This document shows positions 30,554 to 41,756 of a DNA stretch of 47,305 nucleotides, piece after piece. The DNA is from Candidatus Edwardsiibacteriota bacterium (GTDB taxonomy: Bacteria; Edwardsbacteria; AC1; EtOH8). A program made the translations under genes and the position numbers. The notes beneath the pieces are model-generated. The model did not search any database, was not told where the DNA came from, and saw only the letters and a program-made list of their open reading frames with translations. The stretch lies in assembly GCA_020053305.1 (NCBI GenBank), contig JAGVNJ010000063.1, forward strand, positions 1 to 47,305, in the 5' to 3' direction. The stretch's first letter is position 1; each line of letters begins with the position of its first letter.

Positions 30554-31090
30554 ATGCCTGAATTCTTAATGAATGCCATACAAGAAGTTAAAGACGGGAA
30601 TGCCAGCTCTTTCAATGAGATCATTCGGGCTCATCAGCAGGGCATCTATCGGCTATGCTACCGCCTTGCCGGCAATGTTGAGGATGCCAAGGACCTGACC
30701 CAGGAGGTATTCATCAAGGCTTTAAAAGGCATCGGATCGTTCAGGGGAGAGAGCGACATCAGGACCTGGCTCTACCGGATAGCCATTAATACCGGCTCCA
30801 CCTGGCGCAAGAAAAATCTCAACCAGCCCCTTTCTTTTGAAGTTACCGGAGAGTTGGCCGACAGTAAGACCCGGGACGTTCTTTTACAAAGAAAGATTTC
30901 TGAGGCGGTGGACTCGCTGCCTTACAAACAAAGATCGGTGTTCGTGATGCATCATTACGAGGGATACAAGCACGACGAGATCGCCCGGCTCACCGACCGC
31001 TCCCCGGGAAGCGTCAAGGCCAACTATTTCCAGGCGGTCCAGAAGCTGAAGGGGAAGCTGAAGGATTTCGCGGAGTACGCAAATGAATGA
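30554..31090 (+). CDS. ECF-type RNA polymerase sigma factor
   Basis: The 178-residue protein has sigma region 2 (DAKDLTQEVFIKALKGIGSF, then WLYRIAINT, residues ~45-85) and region 4 (LPYKQRSVFVMHHYEGYKHD followed by EIARLTDRSPGSVK, ~120-160). It belongs to the RpoE-like group. The last codons overlap the start of the GxxExxY gene (ATGAATGA), so the original C-terminus may have been altered by that insertion. The putative anti-sigma gene lies at 31552. Confidence 0.9.
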   Translation: MPEFLMNAIQEVKDGNASSFNEIIRAHQQGIYRLCYRLAGNVEDAKDLTQEVFIKALKGIGSFRGESDIRTWLYRIAINTGSTWRKKNLNQPLSFEVTGELADSKTRDVLLQRKISEAVDSLPYKQRSVFVMHHYEGYKHDEIARLTDRSPGSVKANYFQAVQKLKGKLKDFAEYANE

Positions 31091-31517
31091 CCAACCGAAA
31101 TCATCTCACAAAGACACAGAGACACCAAAGGATTTGTTGGAAAATGAGATTGGGGCAATCATAGTTGATACGGCAGTAAAGTTGCATAAAAAGCTGGGGC
31201 CGGGATTGTTGGAAACGGTATATGAAGTCATATTGGCCTACGAACTTGAGCAACAAAACTTAACGGTCAAACGACAGGTTATAGTACCGATAGAATACAA
31301 CGGCCTTAAGTTTGATGAAGGGTTTCGTGCCGACATGGTAATAAACGACAAAGTCATCATAGAATTAAAATCTGTTGAAATGTTAAACAACGCCCATAAG
31401 AAGCAAGTGCTGACCTATTTGCGGTTAACCGGAAACAAGTTGGGGTACCTTTTAAATTTTGGCGAGGCATTGATGAAAAACGGAATAGTCCGGGTGATAA
31501 ACGGAAACCTGAAATAA
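31083..31517 (+). CDS. GxxExxY family protein (PD-(D/E)XK-like fold)
   Basis: The 144-residue protein carries the name-giving GLLETVY motif (GxxExxY, residues ~41-47). It also has a possible nuclease-fold core DMVINDKVIIELKSVE (~83-98), where D83, E94 and K96 resemble PD-(D/E)XK catalytic residues. The family is widespread, often scattered inside other operons and of unknown function. Here it lies between the sigma and anti-sigma genes, is AT-rich, and is flanked by sequence that is also found at 29524-29745. Confidence 0.85.
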   Translation: MNDQPKSSHKDTETPKDLLENEIGAIIVDTAVKLHKKLGPGLLETVYEVILAYELEQQNLTVKRQVIVPIEYNGLKFDEGFRADMVINDKVIIELKSVEMLNNAHKKQVLTYLRLTGNKLGYLLNFGEALMKNGIVRVINGNLK

Positions 31518-31551
31518 ACTTTGCGCCTTGGTGGCTTAGTGAGAGGAAATT

Positions 31552-32043
31552 ATGGAACAAATAAATAAAATACCAACCGATCTGGGATTGTCCGCAATTC
31601 TGGATAAATGGCAGGTGGAGATGCCCGACCAACAGTTCTTCGCCAATCTGCCGGCTGTGGTCCAGCAGGCCGCCCTGAAACCATCCAGGCCCTGGTGGAG
31701 CGCCGTCCTTGCTCCCCTGCCGGTGACTTCTTTTATTATGGTTGCCGCCCTGGCATTCGGGATAGCGACCATTCAATCCCGGATATCGTCCGACAACAGG
31801 ATCTCCCTGACTGCGGCCCACTGGGCCTCGGAGAACTATGGATGGTCTAACATCGATGAAGCCCTGGAATCGGTGGCCGAGGATGCCCCTGTCACCCGGA
31901 ACAATTCGCATGAGAAATATCTTTCCACCCTGCAGAAGGAAACCTATCTCTACGGGACGGACAATGCCGCCCAGATGCTGGACGAACTGTCCGAAACCGA
32001 AATGGAGTATATCCTTTCGGAACTGCAGAATACAAGGAGCTGA
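31552..32043 (+). CDS. putative anti-sigma factor, single-pass membrane protein
   Basis: The 163-residue protein has a cytoplasmic N-terminal part (~1-50), one transmembrane helix (~55-77, LPVTSFIMVAALAFGIATI) and an extracytoplasmic C-terminal part (~78-163). The position after an ECF sigma gene and before periplasmic Spy-like proteins fits an anti-sigma role. The classical zinc HxxxCxxC motif is absent. The GxxExxY gene now separates it from the sigma gene. Confidence 0.6.
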   Translation: MEQINKIPTDLGLSAILDKWQVEMPDQQFFANLPAVVQQAALKPSRPWWSAVLAPLPVTSFIMVAALAFGIATIQSRISSDNRISLTAAHWASENYGWSNIDEALESVAEDAPVTRNNSHEKYLSTLQKETYLYGTDNAAQMLDELSETEMEYILSELQNTRS

Positions 32044-32045
32044 AA

Positions 32046-32573
32046 ATGAAAAAAACAATGTTGATTCTGTCCCTGCTGCTTACATCCCTGCCGGCCACGG
32101 CCCAGACCCGGATGACGGTCATGCTCCAGGAGTACGACAGCCTTTGCCCCCCGGAATGTCCGCCGCCGCCCGAGCACCGGGAACGCAGGATGCTGGAGGC
32201 GGTGAGGGTCTCCCGAATGACCGAAATGCTTGAACTCTCCAACCAACAGATAGCCAGGTTCTTTCCCATGCTCAAACAGATGGAGGAGAATCAGCGGGAG
32301 GTGCGCAAAAAACATCGGGCGCTGGTGGCCCAGCTTGAAGAGCTGATGATCAGGAAAGCCCGGGACCAGGAGCTGAAAGCCAAGCTGGATTCCCTTGACA
32401 AGCTGCAGAAGGAGACCTTAAAGAGCATGGAGAAGATCCATCAGGAGCTGGATGCCATGCTTACCATCCGGCAGCGGGCCATGTGGAGGATCTTCGACCA
32501 GAACTTTGACGAGGAGATCCGCAAGATGGTGATCCAGGTCAAAGAAAAAAGATACCGCCGGGTGAGGCAGTAA
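32046..32573 (+). CDS. periplasmic Spy/CpxP-like coiled-coil protein
   Basis: The 175-residue protein has a signal peptide (MKKTMLILSLLLTSLPATA, ~1-19), a short segment with CPPECPPPPE, and then a long helical hairpin (~50-170) containing ELSNQQIARFFPML. This last motif resembles the LTxxQ-type turn of CpxP/Spy/ZraP proteins, which act as periplasmic chaperones or stress sensors. It starts two bases after the anti-sigma stop, so it is probably part of the sigma operon. Confidence 0.65.
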   Translation: MKKTMLILSLLLTSLPATAQTRMTVMLQEYDSLCPPECPPPPEHRERRMLEAVRVSRMTEMLELSNQQIARFFPMLKQMEENQREVRKKHRALVAQLEELMIRKARDQELKAKLDSLDKLQKETLKSMEKIHQELDAMLTIRQRAMWRIFDQNFDEEIRKMVIQVKEKRYRRVRQ

Positions 32574-32698
32574 CAAACATTCTCAAAGAGGCGTTGCGCC
32601 GGGAATAAAAAAATTAAAAATTAAACCTTTGGACTGCCGGTGCAGTCCAATCAACAAACAGCAACAGATAACAATAACCATAAACCTAAGGAGAACGA

Positions 32699-33208
32699 AT
32701 GAAAAAAGCAATCCTATTGATGGTGCCGGCCCTGATGCTGGCGGCCAGCGCCATGGCCCAATGCCCCGGCGGGGGAGAGAAGAACATCCGGATAGAGAAG
32801 CGCATCGAGAAGGGCGGTCCCGGAATGGAGCACGAAGGCCGCGGCCAGTGGTGGGAGAATCCGGAGCTGGCCAAGGAGATCGGGCTGAGCGATGAGCAGA
32901 TCAAAAAGATCGACGCCATGGCCACCGCCCACCGCAAGGAGATGATCAAAACCGAGGCCGACCTGAAGATCGCCAATATGGACTTGCAGGACCTGTTTGA
33001 TGAAGCGGGGAACGAAGGGGTCGTCAGAAAGAAGGCGGCCGAGGTATCCAAACTTCAGGAGAAGATGTACAACTCCCGCATCGAGCACCGCCTGGCCATG
33101 AACAAAGTGCTGACCGCCGAACAGCAGAAGAAGATGAAGTCCATGAAGCACCGGCAAATGAAGAAGGTCGTCATCGACAAGGACTGCGACGGCTGCGGCA
33201 ACAAATAA
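32699..33208 (+). CDS. periplasmic Spy/CpxP-like protein with C-terminal Cys motif
   Basis: The 169-residue protein has a signal peptide (~1-20, ending AMA), a charged Gly-rich segment and a helical core with EIGLSDEQIKKIDAMATAHR (~59-78) typical of Spy/ZraP/LTxxQ proteins. VLTAEQQKKMKSM (~138-150) is a second such turn. The end, DKDCDGCGNK, holds a CxxC pair that may bind metal. A good Shine-Dalgarno (aaggag) and a terminator (33225-33254) frame it. Likely role: envelope or metal stress protection. Confidence 0.7.
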   Translation: MKKAILLMVPALMLAASAMAQCPGGGEKNIRIEKRIEKGGPGMEHEGRGQWWENPELAKEIGLSDEQIKKIDAMATAHRKEMIKTEADLKIANMDLQDLFDEAGNEGVVRKKAAEVSKLQEKMYNSRIEHRLAMNKVLTAEQQKKMKSMKHRQMKKVVIDKDCDGCGNK

Positions 33209-33255: not shown

Positions 33256-33284
33256 TTGACAGCCGCTGCGGGTTGTGATATTCT
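33256..33284 (+). promoter_or_regulatory. sigma-70-type promoter of the sigma-54 activator gene, predicted leaderless
   Basis: TTGACA (33256-33261), a 17-bp spacer and TATTCT (33279-33284) end 8 bases before ATG 33293, so the leader would be 0-2 bases long. Confidence 0.65.
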
Positions 33285-33292
33285 GTTATCCT

Positions 33293-35545
33293 ATGAAACG
33301 CAAATGGTTAAAATACGAACGGGAGACCCGTTTGACCGGGTTCCTGCTGGTGATGATTTTGTCGGTGGTGAACCTGGCTTCCATTTTAATGTTCAACCAT
33401 TCGGTCCGGCAGTATCGCCGGCAGATGGAGGGGCATTTGGCGGCCTCCGCCCGGCTGGCAGCGGAAAACTACCGGGAAAACACCGGCCTTCCCGCGGACA
33501 GCATCGAGGCCAAGTGGTCGGCTCTGGCAAGCATCTCCGGCATCAGCGCCATCGGCCTGGCCGACAGCAACGGCCGGTGGGTGGCGGCCAGCAACCGGTA
33601 TTTACTGGAAGCCTACCTTTTTCCGGCCGTGACCGACACCGAACAGGCGGCCAGTTGGGGGAAATTAACCCCCGGCAGAATGGCCTACGACCCCAGCCAG
33701 GACTACGGATTTGTCAACTATTCCCTCAGGGAGGGCTTGGCGGGAAACGTCCTGGTTTTGCTGGCCCCGGCCGGTTCGCTGCCTTCGCTGGAATCCGGCG
33801 CCAGGATGCAAAATATCTGGTCGGCCGTAATATTTCTGGCAGTATTGATCGGACTGTTTCTGTATCTGCGGCTGATATTCAATCCATTCCGAAGCATGGC
33901 CCGGCTGGCCCGGGATAATTCCGGGGGAGAGATCCCTTGCGGCTCCGATGTCGAGCTGGTGATGGATAGCTATCAAAGCATGATTACCGAACTGAGGCAG
34001 AAGGGGCGGGACCTGAACGAACTGTATGCCAAGGAGCGGGTGAGGGCCGACGATCTGGAACAGTTCAGCCGGCAGATATTGGACAGCGTGGACAAGGGGA
34101 TAATCAGTATTGACACTGCCGGGAAGGTGCTGGCCTGCAACCCTGCGGCCCGGGACATCTTCGGCCTCGCCGCCATTGAATCCTGCGCCGAAATATTCAG
34201 CCGGGAGGAACTGGAGGCCGTCGGCCGGGGCGCTAGATTGATGACCAAGGAACTGGAAAATCCCTCCGGCCGGGCCAGAACCATCCAGGTGGAGATCAGC
34301 GACCTGAAGAATTCCGGCGGCCAGAGGATGGGAAATAACCTGGTGGTGTCGGACATCACCGACATCAAGAGGATGGAGGAACTGGAGGATATCTCCGAAA
34401 AATCGGCCCTGCTGGAAAACGCCTCCCGGAGCCTGCTGGCCAGGGTAAAGCCGGGCCTGCAGGAGATAAAACAATCCTTGGAAAATTTCCCCGGCGAAAC
34501 TGTCGGTCTGCAGTTGGAAAAGCTGGAGAGACTGATAGCCGAGTACGGCCAGTATTTCAGTTATCGGGACCAAATAAGCGATCAGCCCGGATCGCCGGAT
34601 ATCGTCTTCGCCTCCCCGGCCATGCAGGAAGTTTTGAACCTGGCGGGCAAAGTGGCGCCGGCCGACAGCACGGTGCTGATCACCGGAGACAGCGGCACCG
34701 GAAAGGAGCTGATCGCCAGGGAGATCCACCGGCTGAGCCCCCGGGCGGAAAAACCTTTTGTCACCATCAACTGTGCGGCCCTGCCGGAAAATCTTCTGGA
34801 GTCGGAACTGTTCGGCCATGTCAAGGGCGCCTTTACCGGCGCCGGCCGCGATAAACCCGGCCTTTTTAGGGTGGCCGAGGGCGGCAGTTTCTTTTTGGAC
34901 GAGATCGGGGAACTTCCCCTGGGCCTTCAGGCCAAGATCCTGCGGGCCATCCAGGAGAAGGATATCACACCGGTGGGCGGCATCAAGAGCCTAAAGATCG
35001 ACATCCGGCTGATCGCCGCCAGCAATCAGAACCTGGAAAAGATGGCGGCCCAGGGAAAATTCCGCCAGGATCTTTTCTACCGGCTGAACGTTTTTCCCAT
35101 CAACCTGGCGCCCCTTTCCCAACGGCCGGAGGATATCGAGCCGCTGGTCTATCATTTTATGAAAAAGCACAGCCTAAAAAACAAGAAGAAAATCGAATCC
35201 ATCGAGGCCGGGGCGCTGGCGGCCATGAAGAAGCATTGCTGGCCGGGCAACATCAGGGAACTGGAGAACGCCATCGAAAGAGCCACGCTGGTCGCCCGGA
35301 GTCGAAAGATAAAACTGGAGGATCTGAACATCGTACTGCCGGCCGATGACGAAATTGAAGTAAGCGATGGAGGCGGTGGGTTGATGGCCGTCTCGGCCAA
35401 GGCGGCGGCCAAGGCCGAAGCCGAATTGATCGAAAAGATACTGGCCCAGACCGGCGGCAATAAAAGCCAGGCCGCCCGCCGGCTGCAGATAAGCTACCGG
35501 GTGATGTTGAAGAAGATCAAGGATTACGGCCTGGATAAAGCTTAA
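33293..35545 (+). CDS. membrane-bound sigma-54-dependent transcriptional activator with PAS domain
   Basis: Start at ATG 33293 ([17 protein letters not shown]); a GTG 18 bases up lies inside the promoter. 750 residues. Order: helix ~16-36, extracytoplasmic sensor domain ~37-170, helix ~173-195, linker, PAS domain ~255-355 ([20 protein letters not shown]), AAA+ sigma-54 interaction domain ~436-665 with Walker [15 protein letters not shown] at 512-517 and Walker B-like FFLDEIGEL, and a C-terminal Fis-type helix-turn-helix ([14 protein letters not shown]). There is no histidine kinase or receiver domain, so sensing and activation are in one membrane protein. A sigma-54 promoter lies downstream at 36308 before pilin genes, a likely target. 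Confidence 0.9.
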
Positions 35546-35843
35546 CTTAACTGTGGCAAAAAAAACAGTCGGGTCATTCAGCAGGGCGGCTTGCCCGACA
35601 AGCCGAAGAATCCAGGTTCTTTCCTTACTTTCTCTTGTGACCAAGAGAAAGTAACAAAGAGAAGTCCTGGGGGCGGTCGAGCTGATGTTCATTGACCCCG
35701 AAAACAAAATACCAGGATCTGTTAACTGTGGTATGTCTTTTATCCGATGTCCGATGCCGCCGACCGCCCCCATACCCCGGCCGATCATTTTGGTTTGCCC
35801 AAAATAACCGGCTTGGGTTGGCCGTTCGATAGCATTGTTGCTT

Positions 35844-35944
35844 GTCACCCTGAGAACGCTACCCGCCAGGCAAGTTGAACGGGTGGCAATATTCAATGAT
35901 CACACATTCAGCCAGTCAGGCAAGGCGGCCTTCTCAGTGTGACA
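35844..35944. repeat. intergenic palindromic repeat cluster, further copy
   Basis: gtcaccctgag...gttgaacgggtg (35844-35887) and tcacacattca...tcagtgtgaca (35900-35944) repeat the two words seen between cinA and thpR at 8249-8344. Confidence 0.65.
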
Positions 35945-36197
35945 GGCTTTTATTATTTCAACTTTCGACTTTGAACTTGCATCTATCGTGAAGGGGAAAT
36001 TGAACAACGCCTATTATTAAATGGGGTTATAATAAAGGAAACATGTTGTAATACAAAAGGTTAAGGCTCTATTAGTTATTGATTGATCGTTATAGGTTTT
36101 TAGGAAAAACGGCGATCTGCCGGAAAGGGCAAAATATAATGACGCAGGCGTGGTAAATTTGCCAAAGTTCAGGCTTAAGGTTAGTACCGGGGGGTTC

Positions 36198-36223
36198 ATA
36201 TTGTTACTTTTGGGTAACAATAT
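36198..36223. promoter_or_regulatory. perfect palindrome, likely upstream activator site for the sigma-54 promoter
   Basis: atattgttac (36198-36207), a 6-bp spacer and gtaacaatat (36214-36223) form a perfect inverted repeat. Its centre is about 124 bp upstream of the predicted transcription start, the usual distance for enhancer-binding proteins. Confidence 0.6.
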
Positions 36224-36307
36224 CGAGGCATCAAGTGAAATTGCCGGTCAGACAGTATTATCCATAGTGTCATGCTACCCAGCCTGTTAAGCGATTGGCA
36301 AAGGGAA

Positions 36308-36323
36308 TGGCATTAATATTGCT
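36308..36323 (+). promoter_or_regulatory. sigma-54 promoter of the minor pilin genes
   Basis: TGGCATTAATATTGCT has GG at 36309-36310 and GC at 36321-36322, the exact -24/-12 spacing of TGGCAC-N5-TTGCA promoters. Transcription should start about 36334, just before the GGTGGAGG Shine-Dalgarno of the first pilin gene. Confidence 0.8.
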
Positions 36324-36350
36324 TATTAATATATGGTGGAGGATGGAAAA

Positions 36351-36800
36351 ATGAAAAAGAATGGTTTCTCTCTGATCGAGCTGATGACCGTAATCATCAT
36401 CATAGGCATATTAGTTGGCTTGACTGTTCCCAGCATAGTGCGGAACGTGCCCCAAAGGAAACAGAAGGATGCCCGCAGCCAGTTGTTCGGCGAACTGCAC
36501 CTGATACGCCAAATGGCCATGGGCCAGGACCTTTTTTATTGCCTGGATGTCATCAACAGCACCCAGTACCGGGTATTTGTCGATAACAGCCTGGCGCCCA
36601 ACGGCTCTTATGACAGCGGGGAGCGGGTGCTCAGAACCGTACGGCTGCCATCCGGGATAACTTTCTCCAACACCACTTTTACGGTCGGCTTCCGGCCCAC
36701 CGGAGTGCTGATAAACACCAGCATCAACGCCCTGGCCATCCAGAATACCGCCGGCGCCCGGGATACCATCTACATCATGCAGTCGGGCAGCATATTTTAA
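36351..36800 (+). CDS. type IV minor pilin, GspH/FimT family
   Basis: The ATG at 36351 follows a GGAGG; an in-frame ATG at 36333 coincides with the transcription start. 149 residues. The class III signal KKNGFSLIELMTVIIIIGIL has the prepilin peptidase site G/FSLIE after Gly5, with Glu at +5. Residues ~25-149 form the head, with the GspH/FimT-like stretch ARSQLFGELHLIRQMA. It is exported and built into a pilus or pseudopilus. First gene of a four-pilin operon. Confidence 0.85.
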   Translation: MKKNGFSLIELMTVIIIIGILVGLTVPSIVRNVPQRKQKDARSQLFGELHLIRQMAMGQDLFYCLDVINSTQYRVFVDNSLAPNGSYDSGERVLRTVRLPSGITFSNTTFTVGFRPTGVLINTSINALAIQNTAGARDTIYIMQSGSIF

Positions 36801-36823: not shown

Positions 36824-37189
36824 ATGAACAAGCACGGCCTGTCACTTGTAGAATTGATGGTCTCCATCACCATACTGGCCATCGTCCTGCTGGGCATAGC
36901 GGCGCTTTTCCCAAGGGGGCTTGGTTATACCACCCAGTCCCGGCTGCTGGCCCAGGCCAACAATCTGGTCCTGCAGAAGTCGGAGGAGTTCGAGAGGATG
37001 CCCTCCGATCACGCCGACCTGGTTTTGGGGGCCCGCCAGGAGACCATCGGCAGGTTCACCCGCAGATGGGAGATCACCAACGTTAATACCGATGCCAGGA
37101 TCAGACGGGCTGTCATCGCGGTTACCTGGGTGGCCAGCGGTGCCACAATGGACAGCGTCGGTACCACGGTCTTTCTTTACAAACCCTAA
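36824..37189 (+). CDS. type IV minor pilin, PilV/GspI-like
   Basis: The 121-residue protein starts MNKHGLSLVELMVSITILAI: the prepilin site is G/LSLVE after Gly5. AALFPRGLGYTTQSRLLAQANNL-type sequence and a small C-terminal beta region follow. Similar to PilV. It is second in the operon, 23 bases after the GspH-like gene, with an aggag Shine-Dalgarno. Confidence 0.8.
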   Translation: MNKHGLSLVELMVSITILAIVLLGIAALFPRGLGYTTQSRLLAQANNLVLQKSEEFERMPSDHADLVLGARQETIGRFTRRWEITNVNTDARIRRAVIAVTWVASGATMDSVGTTVFLYKP

Positions 37190-37212: not shown

Positions 37213-40200
37213 ATGAACAGAAAAGGGTTTTCCTTGGTAGAACTGATGGTGGCAGTGACAGTGCTGGGCCTTGTGATGACAGCCGTGGTAGCATTGTTGA
37301 TAAACAGCGACAAGGCCAAGCGCAAGAACGAAATGCTGATCGAGGCCCAACAGCAGGGTTCGGCGGCCATGGAGATGCTGGTTCGGGACATCCGCTCCGC
37401 CGGCTACGGGGTGGCCACCATTAACGATCAGCCGATCATAGCTTTTGCCACACCGTTCGAGATCATATTCAACACCAATCTCAACCCCTTTCCTGATAAC
37501 CAGGGGCTGAGCCAGCCCCGGGCCTACGACCCGGGCATACCCCCCCTGTGCCCCAACTACACCATCGGCAGCACTTTCACCGGAGGGGCCGAGACCTACC
37601 GCTACACCTTCGACTCCAACCACGACGGAGCCATCGCGGCTGGCGACCGCAGCGACGATGCGGTGGAGCTGAAAACCCGCAATCCCGACGATTATGTGCT
37701 GATCCGCCAGACCTACGGCCGGATGGACGACAATACCAACAATGTCTATCCCAGCCGGAACTTCAACATCGCTCTGGTGAGGGGCCCGGCGGCGGCCGAC
37801 GACCAGGACATCATCCCCATGTTCCAGTATTGGTACCGGGATGTTATCAGCAATACCATCCGGCTGTGGGGCGACACCAACCAGGACAGCGTGCTGACCG
37901 GGGCCGAGCGGCTGTTCGCAAACCCGCCCCAGAACATTCTGACGGCCATCGAGATGATAACCATCACCGTCACCACCGAGACCCGGTCTCCGGTGGACGG
38001 CAACCGGTACCGCCGGGTGGTGGTGTCCACCACCACCAACCTGGCCAACGTGCCCAATACCAAGGCCAAATACGCCATCACCGGCAAGCTTAGGGAACAG
38101 GGTTCGGGCACCGGCATCTCCGGCGGCAAGGTCTATCTTAGCACCGGCTCCATTCAGACCTCCACCGGTACGGGGGATTATACCTTTGCGGTGGAGAACG
38201 GCGATTACATAGTGAGCCCGGAAAAATTTATAACCAGCGGCAGCTACTTTTATGTCCTGAAGAACCCCCAGGATTCCGCGGTGACGGTGGCCGACGCCAA
38301 TGCGCCCAATGTGGATTTTCGCTACCTGGGCATAGCCAGCGGCGACATCAGCCGGATAGGGGGCAAGGTTTATGTTGACACTATCCCTCCCATCGGCATG
38401 GCCGTCACACCTCCGGGGCCCACCACCGGCGAGCGGGGGATAGTCGGGGTGGTGGTGGCGGTGAAGGGAAAGCCGACCGACGCCGAATCCACCATTCTGA
38501 ACATCAGCACCACCACCGATGCCAACGGCGACTACCAGTTTACCCTGCCCCGGGGCATCTATACAATTACCCAGATAGATTCCACCGGCTATTATTCCAC
38601 CACCCCCAATGTCGTGGTGGATTCCCTGCCGGCCGGGACCACCCATCAGGTGAACTTCGGGGACTCCCGCACCGGCATGGGCACCATCAACATCAAGGTG
38701 TGGAATAACACCGACAAGGACAGCACCCTGGATGCCGGGGAGGTGGGGCTGGGCAACGTCTTCTGCATGGTGACCAACACCAACAAAGGCGACCTGGCGG
38801 GATCCGGGCGGACCGACGCCAGCGGGGTGCTGACCATCAACCTGCCGGGCGACTCTTTATATACCGTGATAGAGATCGACCCCGACTCCATGATCTCCAC
38901 CTGCGCCCTGATCAAAGCCATGGGATCCTCCAGCTGGAGCGTCGCCAAGAAGCTCAACCAGATAGACAGTCTTTTTGTGCCCAAGGATTCCACCCGTTAT
39001 GTGATGTTCGGCGACGTGGTGGGCTATGTGGCCATAGCCCTGGGGCAGACCGAACGGGTGCTGTCCATGATCCTGCCGGACCTGAAGGAAAACCGTGATC
39101 CTCCGGGGGACAAAGACAATCCATTATCCTATTCGGCCGACGCCGATATCGTGCTGGGAACGGTCAATACCACCGGGGCGGTATCCAACCTGCTGGTATG
39201 GTATAACCGCTATCAGGACGCCGCCACCCAGGCCAGCTCATTGTTCCCCACGGCCTTCGATTTCTCGTATAATCTCAACTACGACATCACCGCCCTGGCC
39301 GGCGGCAATCTGAACGCCGATCTTCCCAGCACCACCGACGACGTCATCTGCGGGCTCAAGGAGAACGTAGGGGCTTTTAATATCTCGGTGGGATTCACCC
39401 ATGATGGGGGGACCGGCAATGCTTTTCATGACAAGGGTTTGATGAGAAGCGGCACCATCCGCACCTATGCCACCACCACGGCGGTGGCCGCCACCTCGGT
39501 AACGGCGCTGGGCACCGGCAACCTCACCAATTCGAATCGTTTGGATTTTGCCGTCGGCACCAAGGTCGCCAACAACCAGGGGAGGGTGGAGATCTGGAAG
39601 AACCGGGGCGGGGGTCCCCCCACCTTTGGCTCGACTGCTGCGGCCGGCACCCCGGATACGGTGATCACAACCGCCGACGGAGCAACCCTTCTGGGCGAGG
39701 TCCGGGCCATGATCCTGATGGACGTGGTGGACAGCACCGGCAGTTTGGGAAGCGACCTGCCCAACAATTACCAGGACCTGATAATAGCCACCAAGACCGG
39801 CAGTTTCCCCAGCTACACCGGACAATTAGTCATCTACCGCCGGGCCGGGTTCAACAGGCGCTTCGTCCATCATGTCACCTACAACATCAGCGACGGATAC
39901 ATAAACGCGCTGGGGTCCTACCGCTCACGGGGCGCCGCCTTTCCCAACGACATCATCTGCGGCTTAAGGACCAACGGGTCCACCTCGGACGATTACAAGG
40001 GCCGGCTGTCCCTGTGGTACAACAACGGCAACGGCAGCTTCGGCTCGTCCGGAGCGCCCAATGTCTCCCGGGTGCCCGAGGGCGAGGTGCTGTGCCTGAC
40101 CGCCAACCAGCTTAACATAGACACCGACATAGACGTGGCGGTGGGGCTCAAATTCGGCGAATATACCGGCGGCACCCGCTTCTATTACAACACCGCCGGC

Positions 40201-40377
40201 GACCTGGCCCTGGCCGGCTCGGATCCCTCCGGCGGAAAGTTCACCGGCGAGGTGGTCACCATCCGGTCGCGGGCTCTCCGGCCCTATACCACCAAGATCG
40301 ACGTGGCGGCCGGCGAGCGGTTCCTGTCGGGCGGCCTAGGCTACGGAAGAGTGGTCATCTATCATCATAAATATTAA
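37213..40377 (+). CDS. giant PilW-like minor pilin fused to B-type repeats and a repeat-rich C-terminal adhesin region
   Basis: Start at ATG 37213 (MNRKGFSLVELMVAVTVLG) with an agaggtg upstream; ATG 37198 lacks a Shine-Dalgarno. 1054 residues. The N-terminal prepilin part (cleavage after Gly5) and the PilW-like region (~1-300, MLVRDIRSAGYGV) are followed by Cna/SdrD B-like domains (~300-610: TTDANGDYQFTLPRGIYT, then VWNNTDKDSTLDAGEVGLG). Residues ~640-1054 contain at least five imperfect repeats that pair a D-x-(I/V)-x-x-G-strand with an aromatic strand (DFAVGTK...VEIWKNRGG; DIICGLR...LSLWYNNGN; DVAVGLK...RFYYNTAG). They suggest an FG-GAP/VCBS-like propeller. PilW proteins are normally ~300 residues. 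Confidence 0.8.
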   Translation: MNRKGFSLVELMVAVTVLGLVMTAVVALLINSDKAKRKNEMLIEAQQQGSAAMEMLVRDIRSAGYGVATINDQPIIAFATPFEIIFNTNLNPFPDNQGLSQPRAYDPGIPPLCPNYTIGSTFTGGAETYRYTFDSNHDGAIAAGDRSDDAVELKTRNPDDYVLIRQTYGRMDDNTNNVYPSRNFNIALVRGPAAADDQDIIPMFQYWYRDVISNTIRLWGDTNQDSVLTGAERLFANPPQNILTAIEMITITVTTETRSPVDGNRYRRVVVSTTTNLANVPNTKAKYAITGKLREQGSGTGISGGKVYLSTGSIQTSTGTGDYTFAVENGDYIVSPEKFITSGSYFYVLKNPQDSAVTVADANAPNVDFRYLGIASGDISRIGGKVYVDTIPPIGMAVTPPGPTTGERGIVGVVVAVKGKPTDAESTILNISTTTDANGDYQFTLPRGIYTITQIDSTGYYSTTPNVVVDSLPAGTTHQVNFGDSRTGMGTINIKVWNNTDKDSTLDAGEVGLGNVFCMVTNTNKGDLAGSGRTDASGVLTINLPGDSLYTVIEIDPDSMISTCALIKAMGSSSWSVAKKLNQIDSLFVPKDSTRYVMFGDVVGYVAIALGQTERVLSMILPDLKENRDPPGDKDNPLSYSADADIVLGTVNTTGAVSNLLVWYNRYQDAATQASSLFPTAFDFSYNLNYDITALAGGNLNADLPSTTDDVICGLKENVGAFNISVGFTHDGGTGNAFHDKGLMRSGTIRTYATTTAVAATSVTALGTGNLTNSNRLDFAVGTKVANNQGRVEIWKNRGGGPPTFGSTAAAGTPDTVITTADGATLLGEVRAMILMDVVDSTGSLGSDLPNNYQDLIIATKTGSFPSYTGQLVIYRRAGFNRRFVHHVTYNISDGYINALGSYRSRGAAFPNDIICGLRTNGSTSDDYKGRLSLWYNNGNGSFGSSGAPNVSRVPEGEVLCLTANQLNIDTDIDVAVGLKFGEYTGGTRFYYNTAGDLALAGSDPSGGKFTGEVVTIRSRALRPYTTKIDVAAGERFLSGGLGYGRVVIYHHKY

Positions 40378-40391
40378 AGAGGATAAAAGCC

Positions 40392-41756
40392 ATGAAACGG
40401 ATAAACAATCAAAAGGGGGTGGCCCTGGCGCTGTCGCTGATGATCATCCTGGTGCTGTCGGTAATGGCCAGCGGGCTGATGTTCAACATCATCAACGAAA
40501 AAACCATCACCGCCCACCGGATGCGCAGTTCCCAGTCCCTGGTGCTGGCCAAGGCCGGCACCGCGGAGGCCATCGCCAGGCTGTCGCTGCTGCCCGGCCA
40601 TATTTATGGCATCGTCCAGGATATCCCCAACAACGTTTTTAATCCCGAGTGGCGCTGTTACATCACCCTGGACGCCCCTCCCAATGACCCCAGCGGAACC
40701 ACGCCCTATATCTACAAACAGACCCTGCAGACCGGGACCTCTCTGCAGTACAGCACCAATTTCGGCGCTTTGGGCGACAGCTTCTCCACCCTGCAGATAC
40801 GCTACAAGCGGATAGACCTGAACGGCGACAATGTTATCACCAACAACGAGGTGTATTATTACGATTACAAGCGGGAGGTGGTGGTGCTGGGCAAGGCGTC
40901 CCCCTGCCCGAACGACGCCTACCCGGTATGGGAGATCATCTCCACCGGGCGGGTGGGCACCTCCCGCCGGACCATGGTGACCGAGGTCAGCGTGCCCAAA
41001 TTCACCGCCCGGACCAGGGCCGGCCTGAGCTCCAAGGCTCCGGTTGTCGGGCACGGCAATGCCGATGTCTGCGGGCACGACCATCCCCAGACCACTCCGT
41101 ATAATCTGACTCCGCCCAACTGTTTTATCACCACCACCGCCCTGCCGCACGGCTGGCATGTGGCGGCCGACGAGGTCCACGGCCTGGCGGCCAACAGTTA
41201 TGCCAATCTCGCCCCCAATGCCAGCTGCACCAAGGCCGGCTGCGTGCCCGGCATCGAGTCCGATTCCATCATCACCGATATCGGGGCCAATAAAAAATCC
41301 TGGGGCAACCCCGATTATTATGAAAAATCCCAAAGGCCCATCTATAAGATATGGGAGATCCTGGGGATGGACTCGGCCGCCTGCTGGAACCTGCCCTGGG
41401 GCAACAATATGTACCCGGTCATGGGACTGGTGCGGGTGGGGACTCCCGGCTCCACCACCATGTATGCCGGGGGCGGCTCCGGACTGCAGCATGACGGCAT
41501 CCTGTGGGTCAGGGGAGACCTGCATTCCGCCTCAAACATATCCTTCAAGGGCCTGATCTACATCGAGGGCAATTATAAGTCCGGCGGCACCACCTGGGTG
41601 CTGGGCGGGATAGTGGTGCGTGGCACCACCGAAACCTGGATCACCGGCAGCATCGATGTGCTATACTCCAGCCAGACCCTGGCCCGGGTGGCCCGGCTGG
41701 CCAATGCCGCCGGGATGGTGGTGCTGAGCCAACGGGAGGTGGACCAGAAATATTGA
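40392..41756 (+). CDS. PilX-like pilus assembly protein
   Basis: The 454-residue protein starts KRINNQKGVALALSLMIILVLS, the N-terminal helix typical of PilX proteins, which have a Gly before a hydrophobic helix. RSSQSLVLAKAGTAEAIARL (~44-64) is the usual PilX-type continuation. The long C-terminal part is Gly/Tyr/Asn-rich, with beta-like strands near the end (GILWVRGDLHSASNISFKGL). It closes the minor-pilin operon, followed by a terminator. No PilY1, major pilin or pilus ATPase gene is in the window. Confidence 0.78.
   Translation: MKRINNQKGVALALSLMIILVLSVMASGLMFNIINEKTITAHRMRSSQSLVLAKAGTAEAIARLSLLPGHIYGIVQDIPNNVFNPEWRCYITLDAPPNDPSGTTPYIYKQTLQTGTSLQYSTNFGALGDSFSTLQIRYKRIDLNGDNVITNNEVYYYDYKREVVVLGKASPCPNDAYPVWEIISTGRVGTSRRTMVTEVSVPKFTARTRAGLSSKAPVVGHGNADVCGHDHPQTTPYNLTPPNCFITTTALPHGWHVAADEVHGLAANSYANLAPNASCTKAGCVPGIESDSIITDIGANKKSWGNPDYYEKSQRPIYKIWEILGMDSAACWNLPWGNNMYPVMGLVRVGTPGSTTMYAGGGSGLQHDGILWVRGDLHSASNISFKGLIYIEGNYKSGGTTWVLGGIVVRGTTETWITGSIDVLYSSQTLARVARLANAAGMVVLSQREVDQKY

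Follow-up and report, generated by a model that had tools for sequence, protein, structure and literature searches.

The PilS-PilR system of Pseudomonas aeruginosa and other bacteria controls pilA through a six-TM kinase, PilS, and a cytoplasmic response regulator, PilR, whose reported sites consist of TGTN11AGA together with GTCT elements; mutants of pilA and of pilR alike show altered minor-pilin genes (PMC6058289). Upstream activating sequences at distances of at least 100 bp from the promoter, together with DNA looping, are standard (PMC4641369). Sigma-54 has been linked to flagella and pili, and a PAS domain is present in about 12% of the sigma-54 activators covered by one survey, whose main text does not contain the word 'transmembrane' (PMC3162934).

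The locus analysed here lies in a 47,305-nucleotide stretch of DNA (the window) from a genome of the phylum Candidatus Edwardsbacteria. Like PilS-PilR/pilA, it combines an NtrC-type activator and RpoN with upstream sites and pilin genes (PMC6058289), but its sensor and activator are parts of a single membrane protein that has no receiver domain, its operator reads TRTTACN6GTAAYA rather than the PilR pattern, and the adjoining target is a minor-pilin operon. The unit would thus work like PilSR and yet falls outside PilR, because it has no receiver domain. Like the one-component PAS sigma-54 enhancer-binding proteins (type Ib, PMC3162934), the activator unites sensor, AAA+ and HTH in a single chain; the two TM helices that enclose its periplasmic part and its kinase-derived hairpin without a histidine set it apart. 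Histidine kinases of the WalK/VicK type have the same order of TM, periplasmic part, TM, linker, PAS and helical hairpin; unlike them, the activator has no phospho-accepting histidine or kinase ATPase domain and carries AAA+ and HTH instead. We found no description of this activator, of its operator or of Edwardsbacteria pilus regulation in the open-licence literature, assessed chiefly from titles and abstracts. Pilin promoters of the sigma-54 type are ordinary; the variant part is the activator, which appears to be dedicated, membrane-bound and kinase-derived and whose single operator is phylum-wide. We read the region, with a probability of roughly 85%, as controlling an operon of four minor-pilin genes, which is predicted to be run by the adjoining activator through a palindrome and an RpoN promoter. 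Its features are as follows.

33256-33292, + strand: sigma-70-type promoter of the activator gene (TTGACA at 33256-33261, 17-bp spacer, TATTCT at 33279-33284)
33293-35545, + strand: membrane-bound sigma-54 activator, 750 aa (Pfam, hydropathy, ten-orthologue alignment, AlphaFold2, Foldseek)
35546-36175, no strand: interspersed repeat DNA of about 630 bp behind the activator stop codon (approximate limits, with GCTTAA at each)
36198-36223, no strand: operator/enhancer palindrome, ATATTGTTAC-TTTTGG-GTAACAATAT, predicted binding site of an activator dimer
36308-36323, + strand: -24/-12 sigma-54 promoter, TGGCATTAATATTGCT (exact motif match; -24 and -12 kept in relatives)
36338-36342, + strand: Shine-Dalgarno GGAGG of the first pilin gene, read from the sequence, inside a predicted leader of about 17 nt
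36351-36800, + strand: minor (pseudo)pilin 1, GspH/FimT-like, N-terminus MKKNGFSLIELM (PF07963; weak TIGR01708 GspH)
36824-37189, + strand: minor pilin 2, PilV-like (PF07963; weak TIGR02523 PilV)
37213-40377, + strand: minor pilin 3, in the PilW position, about 1054 aa, with an SdrD-B-like segment (PF07963, PF17210)
40392-41756, + strand: minor pilin 4, in the PilX position (sub-threshold PF14341 PilX_N, E = 0.0064)

All four genes of the operon encode prepilin-type or PilX-like N-termini, and the third product is a possible tip adhesin. The element at 36308-36323 was the only exact match to TGGCAYN5TTGCW in the window (five in the 2.59-Mb genome), with the GG and GC dinucleotides of -24 and -12 at their fixed spacing. 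Counting C36322 as -12, +1 is predicted near 36334, just 5′ of the GGAGG that precedes the first pilin ATG at 36351. The original prediction had proposed an exact -24/-12 spacing and a start at about 36334 directly before a Shine-Dalgarno sequence, and our reading of the region agrees with it on both. This pilin does not really begin at the mechanically called ORF start, 36333, because a TAG closes the frame there in one relative (G001). An rpoN gene, whose presence had been put forward as something to check, was found on contig C62 of the window's genome (483-aa frame; Sigma54_DBD, E = 1.7e-55). Since one-mismatch versions of the -24/-12 motif occur in the window at chance level, the promoter motif by itself proves little and its conservation carries the weight.

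Upstream of the promoter, the predicted 10-6-10 palindrome was indeed perfect, with its core TRTTAC-N6-GTAAYA at 36202-36219, and 100 shuffles of the window yielded no such palindrome, even with 3 mismatches allowed. Its centre lies 111 bp from the C of -12 and about 122-123 bp from the predicted +1, compared with about 100 bp or more for the enhancers of the NtrC family; the distance originally given was ~124 bp.

The locus was compared across 10 genomes of Candidatus Edwardsbacteria, that of the window included. In 10/10 genomes the gene next to the pilin gene on its upstream side encodes an activator orthologue, and every activator-pilin gap contains both TRTTACN6GTAAYA (with 0-2 other copies per genome) and a -24/-12 element, whose predicted leader begins 16-24 nt before the pilin ATG. 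Measured from the operator centre, the GG of -24 lies 99 bp away in the window's genus (four genomes), 98 bp away in genus g4 (three genomes), 105-106 bp away in two others and 117 bp away in one; the offset of G004, G005 and G007 from the other genomes does not correspond to whole helical turns, which counts against the proposed arrangement. Ten of the 12 columns of the operator arms are invariant across the ten genomes (5/6 per arm) versus 3/88 between operator and promoter, and among the six divergent genomes mean identity is about 0.9 in the arms versus 0.36 in between. Because of shared ancestry, ten genomes are not ten independent trials. The conservation of the arms is the phylogenetic footprint of a putative DNA-binding site, and the predicted on-switch of the pilin genes is very probably real: the comparison supports the original reading of an activator, palindrome and pilin switch, as order and near-fixed spacing were kept in 10/10 genomes while the intervening DNA diverged.

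Exact copies of TRTTACN6GTAAYA number 1-3 per genome across the ten and only one in the window's genome, so the expectation of further palindromes before other sigma-54 promoters of this genome was not borne out. One-mismatch copies (17 per strand) match the background given by a reversed control (18), and for this reason we claim no regulon for the palindrome. A single-site operator fits a dedicated regulator, and the activator seems, from this distribution, to have one target operon. Further exact copies in G002 and G008 (loci L099, L100 and L101) were set aside, as they lie in or near unrelated genes.

We then considered which protein would use the site. The recognition helix of the activator's HTH is nearly invariant in the ten orthologues. 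A paralogue on contig C8 of the window's genome has a different recognition helix, LGIHYATLYRKLKSY, and its pilin locus has no such operator. In the three genomes of genus g4, a second operator, TATTACCCATGAGTAACA, lies over the activator start codon (G006:C11:65570-65587; G009:C133:2416-2433; G008:C83:10355-10372). It reads TATTACCC-ATG-AGTAACA and also spans the activator's predicted transcription start. A site at a regulator's own start and another at the adjoining operon are the usual sign of self-control, and the g4 copy ties the activator to the operator. This arrangement suggests autoregulation in genus g4, where the activator probably represses itself.

The activator gene would be transcribed from its own promoter. 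TTGACA was present upstream in 10/10 orthologous loci, and a 17-bp spacer, a recognisable -10 and an ATG 6-8 nt behind it were present in 9/10 (G005 was less clear). Orthologue alignment and promoter geometry place the start at ATG 33293, 8 nt after TATTCT, rather than at GTG 33275. Since the -10 lies so close to the ATG in nine loci, the mRNA is predicted to be leaderless or near-leaderless.

The encoded protein bears out the expected membrane-bound sigma-54 activator directly upstream of the pilin genes: hydropathy predicted two TM helices (with a split profile in the G004 orthologue), and the layout runs TM, periplasmic sensor, TM, PAS, degenerate kinase-type helical hairpin, AAA+ and Fis-type HTH. 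The AAA+ domain (PF00158, E = 2.8e-69) has an intact Walker A motif, GDSGTGKE, and an intact GAFTGA, as in enhancer-binding proteins, and the HTH (PF02954 HTH_8, E = 8.3e-11) is of the NtrC-family kind. Pfam gave only a weak, sub-threshold Cache-like match in the periplasmic segment (E = 0.007) and no receiver domain, the N-terminus being TM, sensor, TM and PAS. PAS-containing kinases from Edwardsbacteria, among them one encoded in the window's own genome, have an H-box with which the hairpin aligned in register (AVMAHEIRNPLNSI in that hairpin/H-box pair). At the position of the H-box histidine the orthologues carry A, E, Q or R, and the hairpin leads into AAA+ in place of a kinase ATPase domain. 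An AlphaFold2 model of the sensor was of moderate quality (pLDDT 71, pTM 0.40), and the histidine kinases WalK and VicK were among the PDB entries ranked highest in a Foldseek search with this model. Among 290 genomes (ten of them Edwardsbacteria) the sensor had no match of comparable strength outside the phylum, and the best outside matches examined (loci L155-L163) had kinase-type C-termini and no GAFTGA; within this sample the predicted fusion of sensor and sigma-54 activator was seen only in Edwardsbacteria. The Foldseek matches, the H-box register and the kinase-like relatives outside the phylum indicate that the sensor is most likely derived from a histidine kinase and, since the phospho-accepting histidine is missing, the activator probably signals without a phosphorelay.

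The comparison shows the conserved module and its spacing, the single-site operator, rpoN and the domain layout; from these we infer that the activator binds the palindrome, where transcription starts, what kind of signal is used and in which direction control runs. The activator would be produced, probably at a low steady level, from its leaderless sigma-70-type promoter, and a dimer would bind 36198-36223 through the Fis-type HTH. Once the periplasmic/PAS sensor is triggered, the AAA+ domains would assemble and be brought to the promoter by looping over about 100 bp, where ATP would be used to open the RpoN-polymerase complex at 36308-36323 and give an mRNA from near 36334. The signal would travel within one protein, from a kinase-like sensor without catalytic domain or phosphorylatable histidine to the AAA+ domain joined to it. 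Genus g4 would probably add self-repression, through the operator copy at the activator start codon.

Other accounts of the palindrome have to be weighed against this one. A 10-bp hairpin could form in RNA, and in most relatives the palindrome sits about 20-40 bp 3′ of the activator stop codon, where a terminator or a 3′-end stabiliser of the activator mRNA might be expected in place of a DNA operator. We consider such a role very unlikely. Read directly, 36198-36240 has an AT-rich stem with no T-run behind it, rather than the G+C-rich stem and T-run of an intrinsic terminator; the letters of the arms are conserved, with no paired changes; and a copy overlies the activator start codon in genus g4. 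On these grounds we rejected termination. In addition, activator and pilin genes are separated by about 170-300 bp in relatives and by 800 bp in the window, where repeat DNA, pieces of which recur dozens of times in G000-G003, follows the activator stop. This insertion parts the palindrome from the 3′ end of the activator gene and leaves its distance to the pilin promoter unchanged, which argues against a terminator.

Operator and promoter might both be real and the palindrome be occupied by another regulator, with the activator using a different site or not binding DNA at all, a reading that draws on the fact that binding by the adjoining activator is deduced. It appears improbable to us, as all ten genomes pair this activator gene with an operator that is nearly single-copy, the recognition helix is conserved, and a second operator marks the activator's own start in g4; a global factor would have many sites, whereas one-mismatch copies are at background. 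That a chance palindrome and a -24/-12 look-alike have met in an AT-rich gap is scarcely credible: chance would suit the frequency of one-mismatch promoter motifs in the window, but not the outcome of the shuffles, and conservation of the operator-promoter pair in 10/10 genomes at near-fixed spacing already contradicts it. Our preferred reading remains that of an operator for the adjoining activator.

The neighbourhood of the paralogue, which is the main type IV pilus locus of this genome, offers a comparison. At about 50500-57400 of contig C8 (G000:C8, locus L102) lie a PilT-like protein, a PilC-like protein, a PilA-like pilin and another membrane protein, all named by resemblance only, together with a protein that joins a multi-TM, PilS-like sensor to a sigma-54 activator, and a -24/-12-like site, AGGCACGATAATTGCT, between. 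The label 'minor-pilin operon' fits the window's operon because PilT-, PilC- and PilA-like proteins and a second activator sit at this other locus. The fused protein (about 53134-55308) resembles the window's activator in being membrane-bound, in its PAS, degenerate hairpin, AAA+ and HTH, and in the -24/-12-like site after it, but it has several N-terminal TM helices, as in PilS, and no TRTTACN6GTAAYA. We tentatively propose, at somewhat less than even odds, that the phylum controls its pili without a phosphorelay, both pilin loci being under membrane-bound fusions of a kinase-type sensor and a sigma-54 activator, each serving a single operon, and that in one genus the fusion at the minor-pilin locus represses its own leaderless gene.

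The locus presents a complete, testable regulatory unit of activator, operator, promoter and target, in a phylum represented among the matching records by metagenome assemblies. On this reading, a minor-pilin operon would be under sigma-54 control through a dedicated membrane protein that signals without phosphorylation. The single-site, phylum-wide operator would make this a simple case in which to study how an activator held in the membrane gets to its enhancer, and the module is a case for asking how kinase sensors get rewired to other outputs.

Several further observations were made in this genome. Another sigma-54 activator at G000:C68:747-1831 (locus L090) is directly followed by an exact -24/-12 site, TGGCACGCTATTTGCA, in the same layout. 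A 27-bp sequence at 36139-36165 of the window repeats elsewhere in the genome, on contigs C4, C21, C32 and C48. Upstream of the activator, 30554-33208 of the window encodes an ECF sigma factor along with a small unknown protein and a Spy/CpxP-like (LTXXQ) periplasmic protein, a possible envelope-stress unit, and a terminator-like hairpin divides these genes from the activator.
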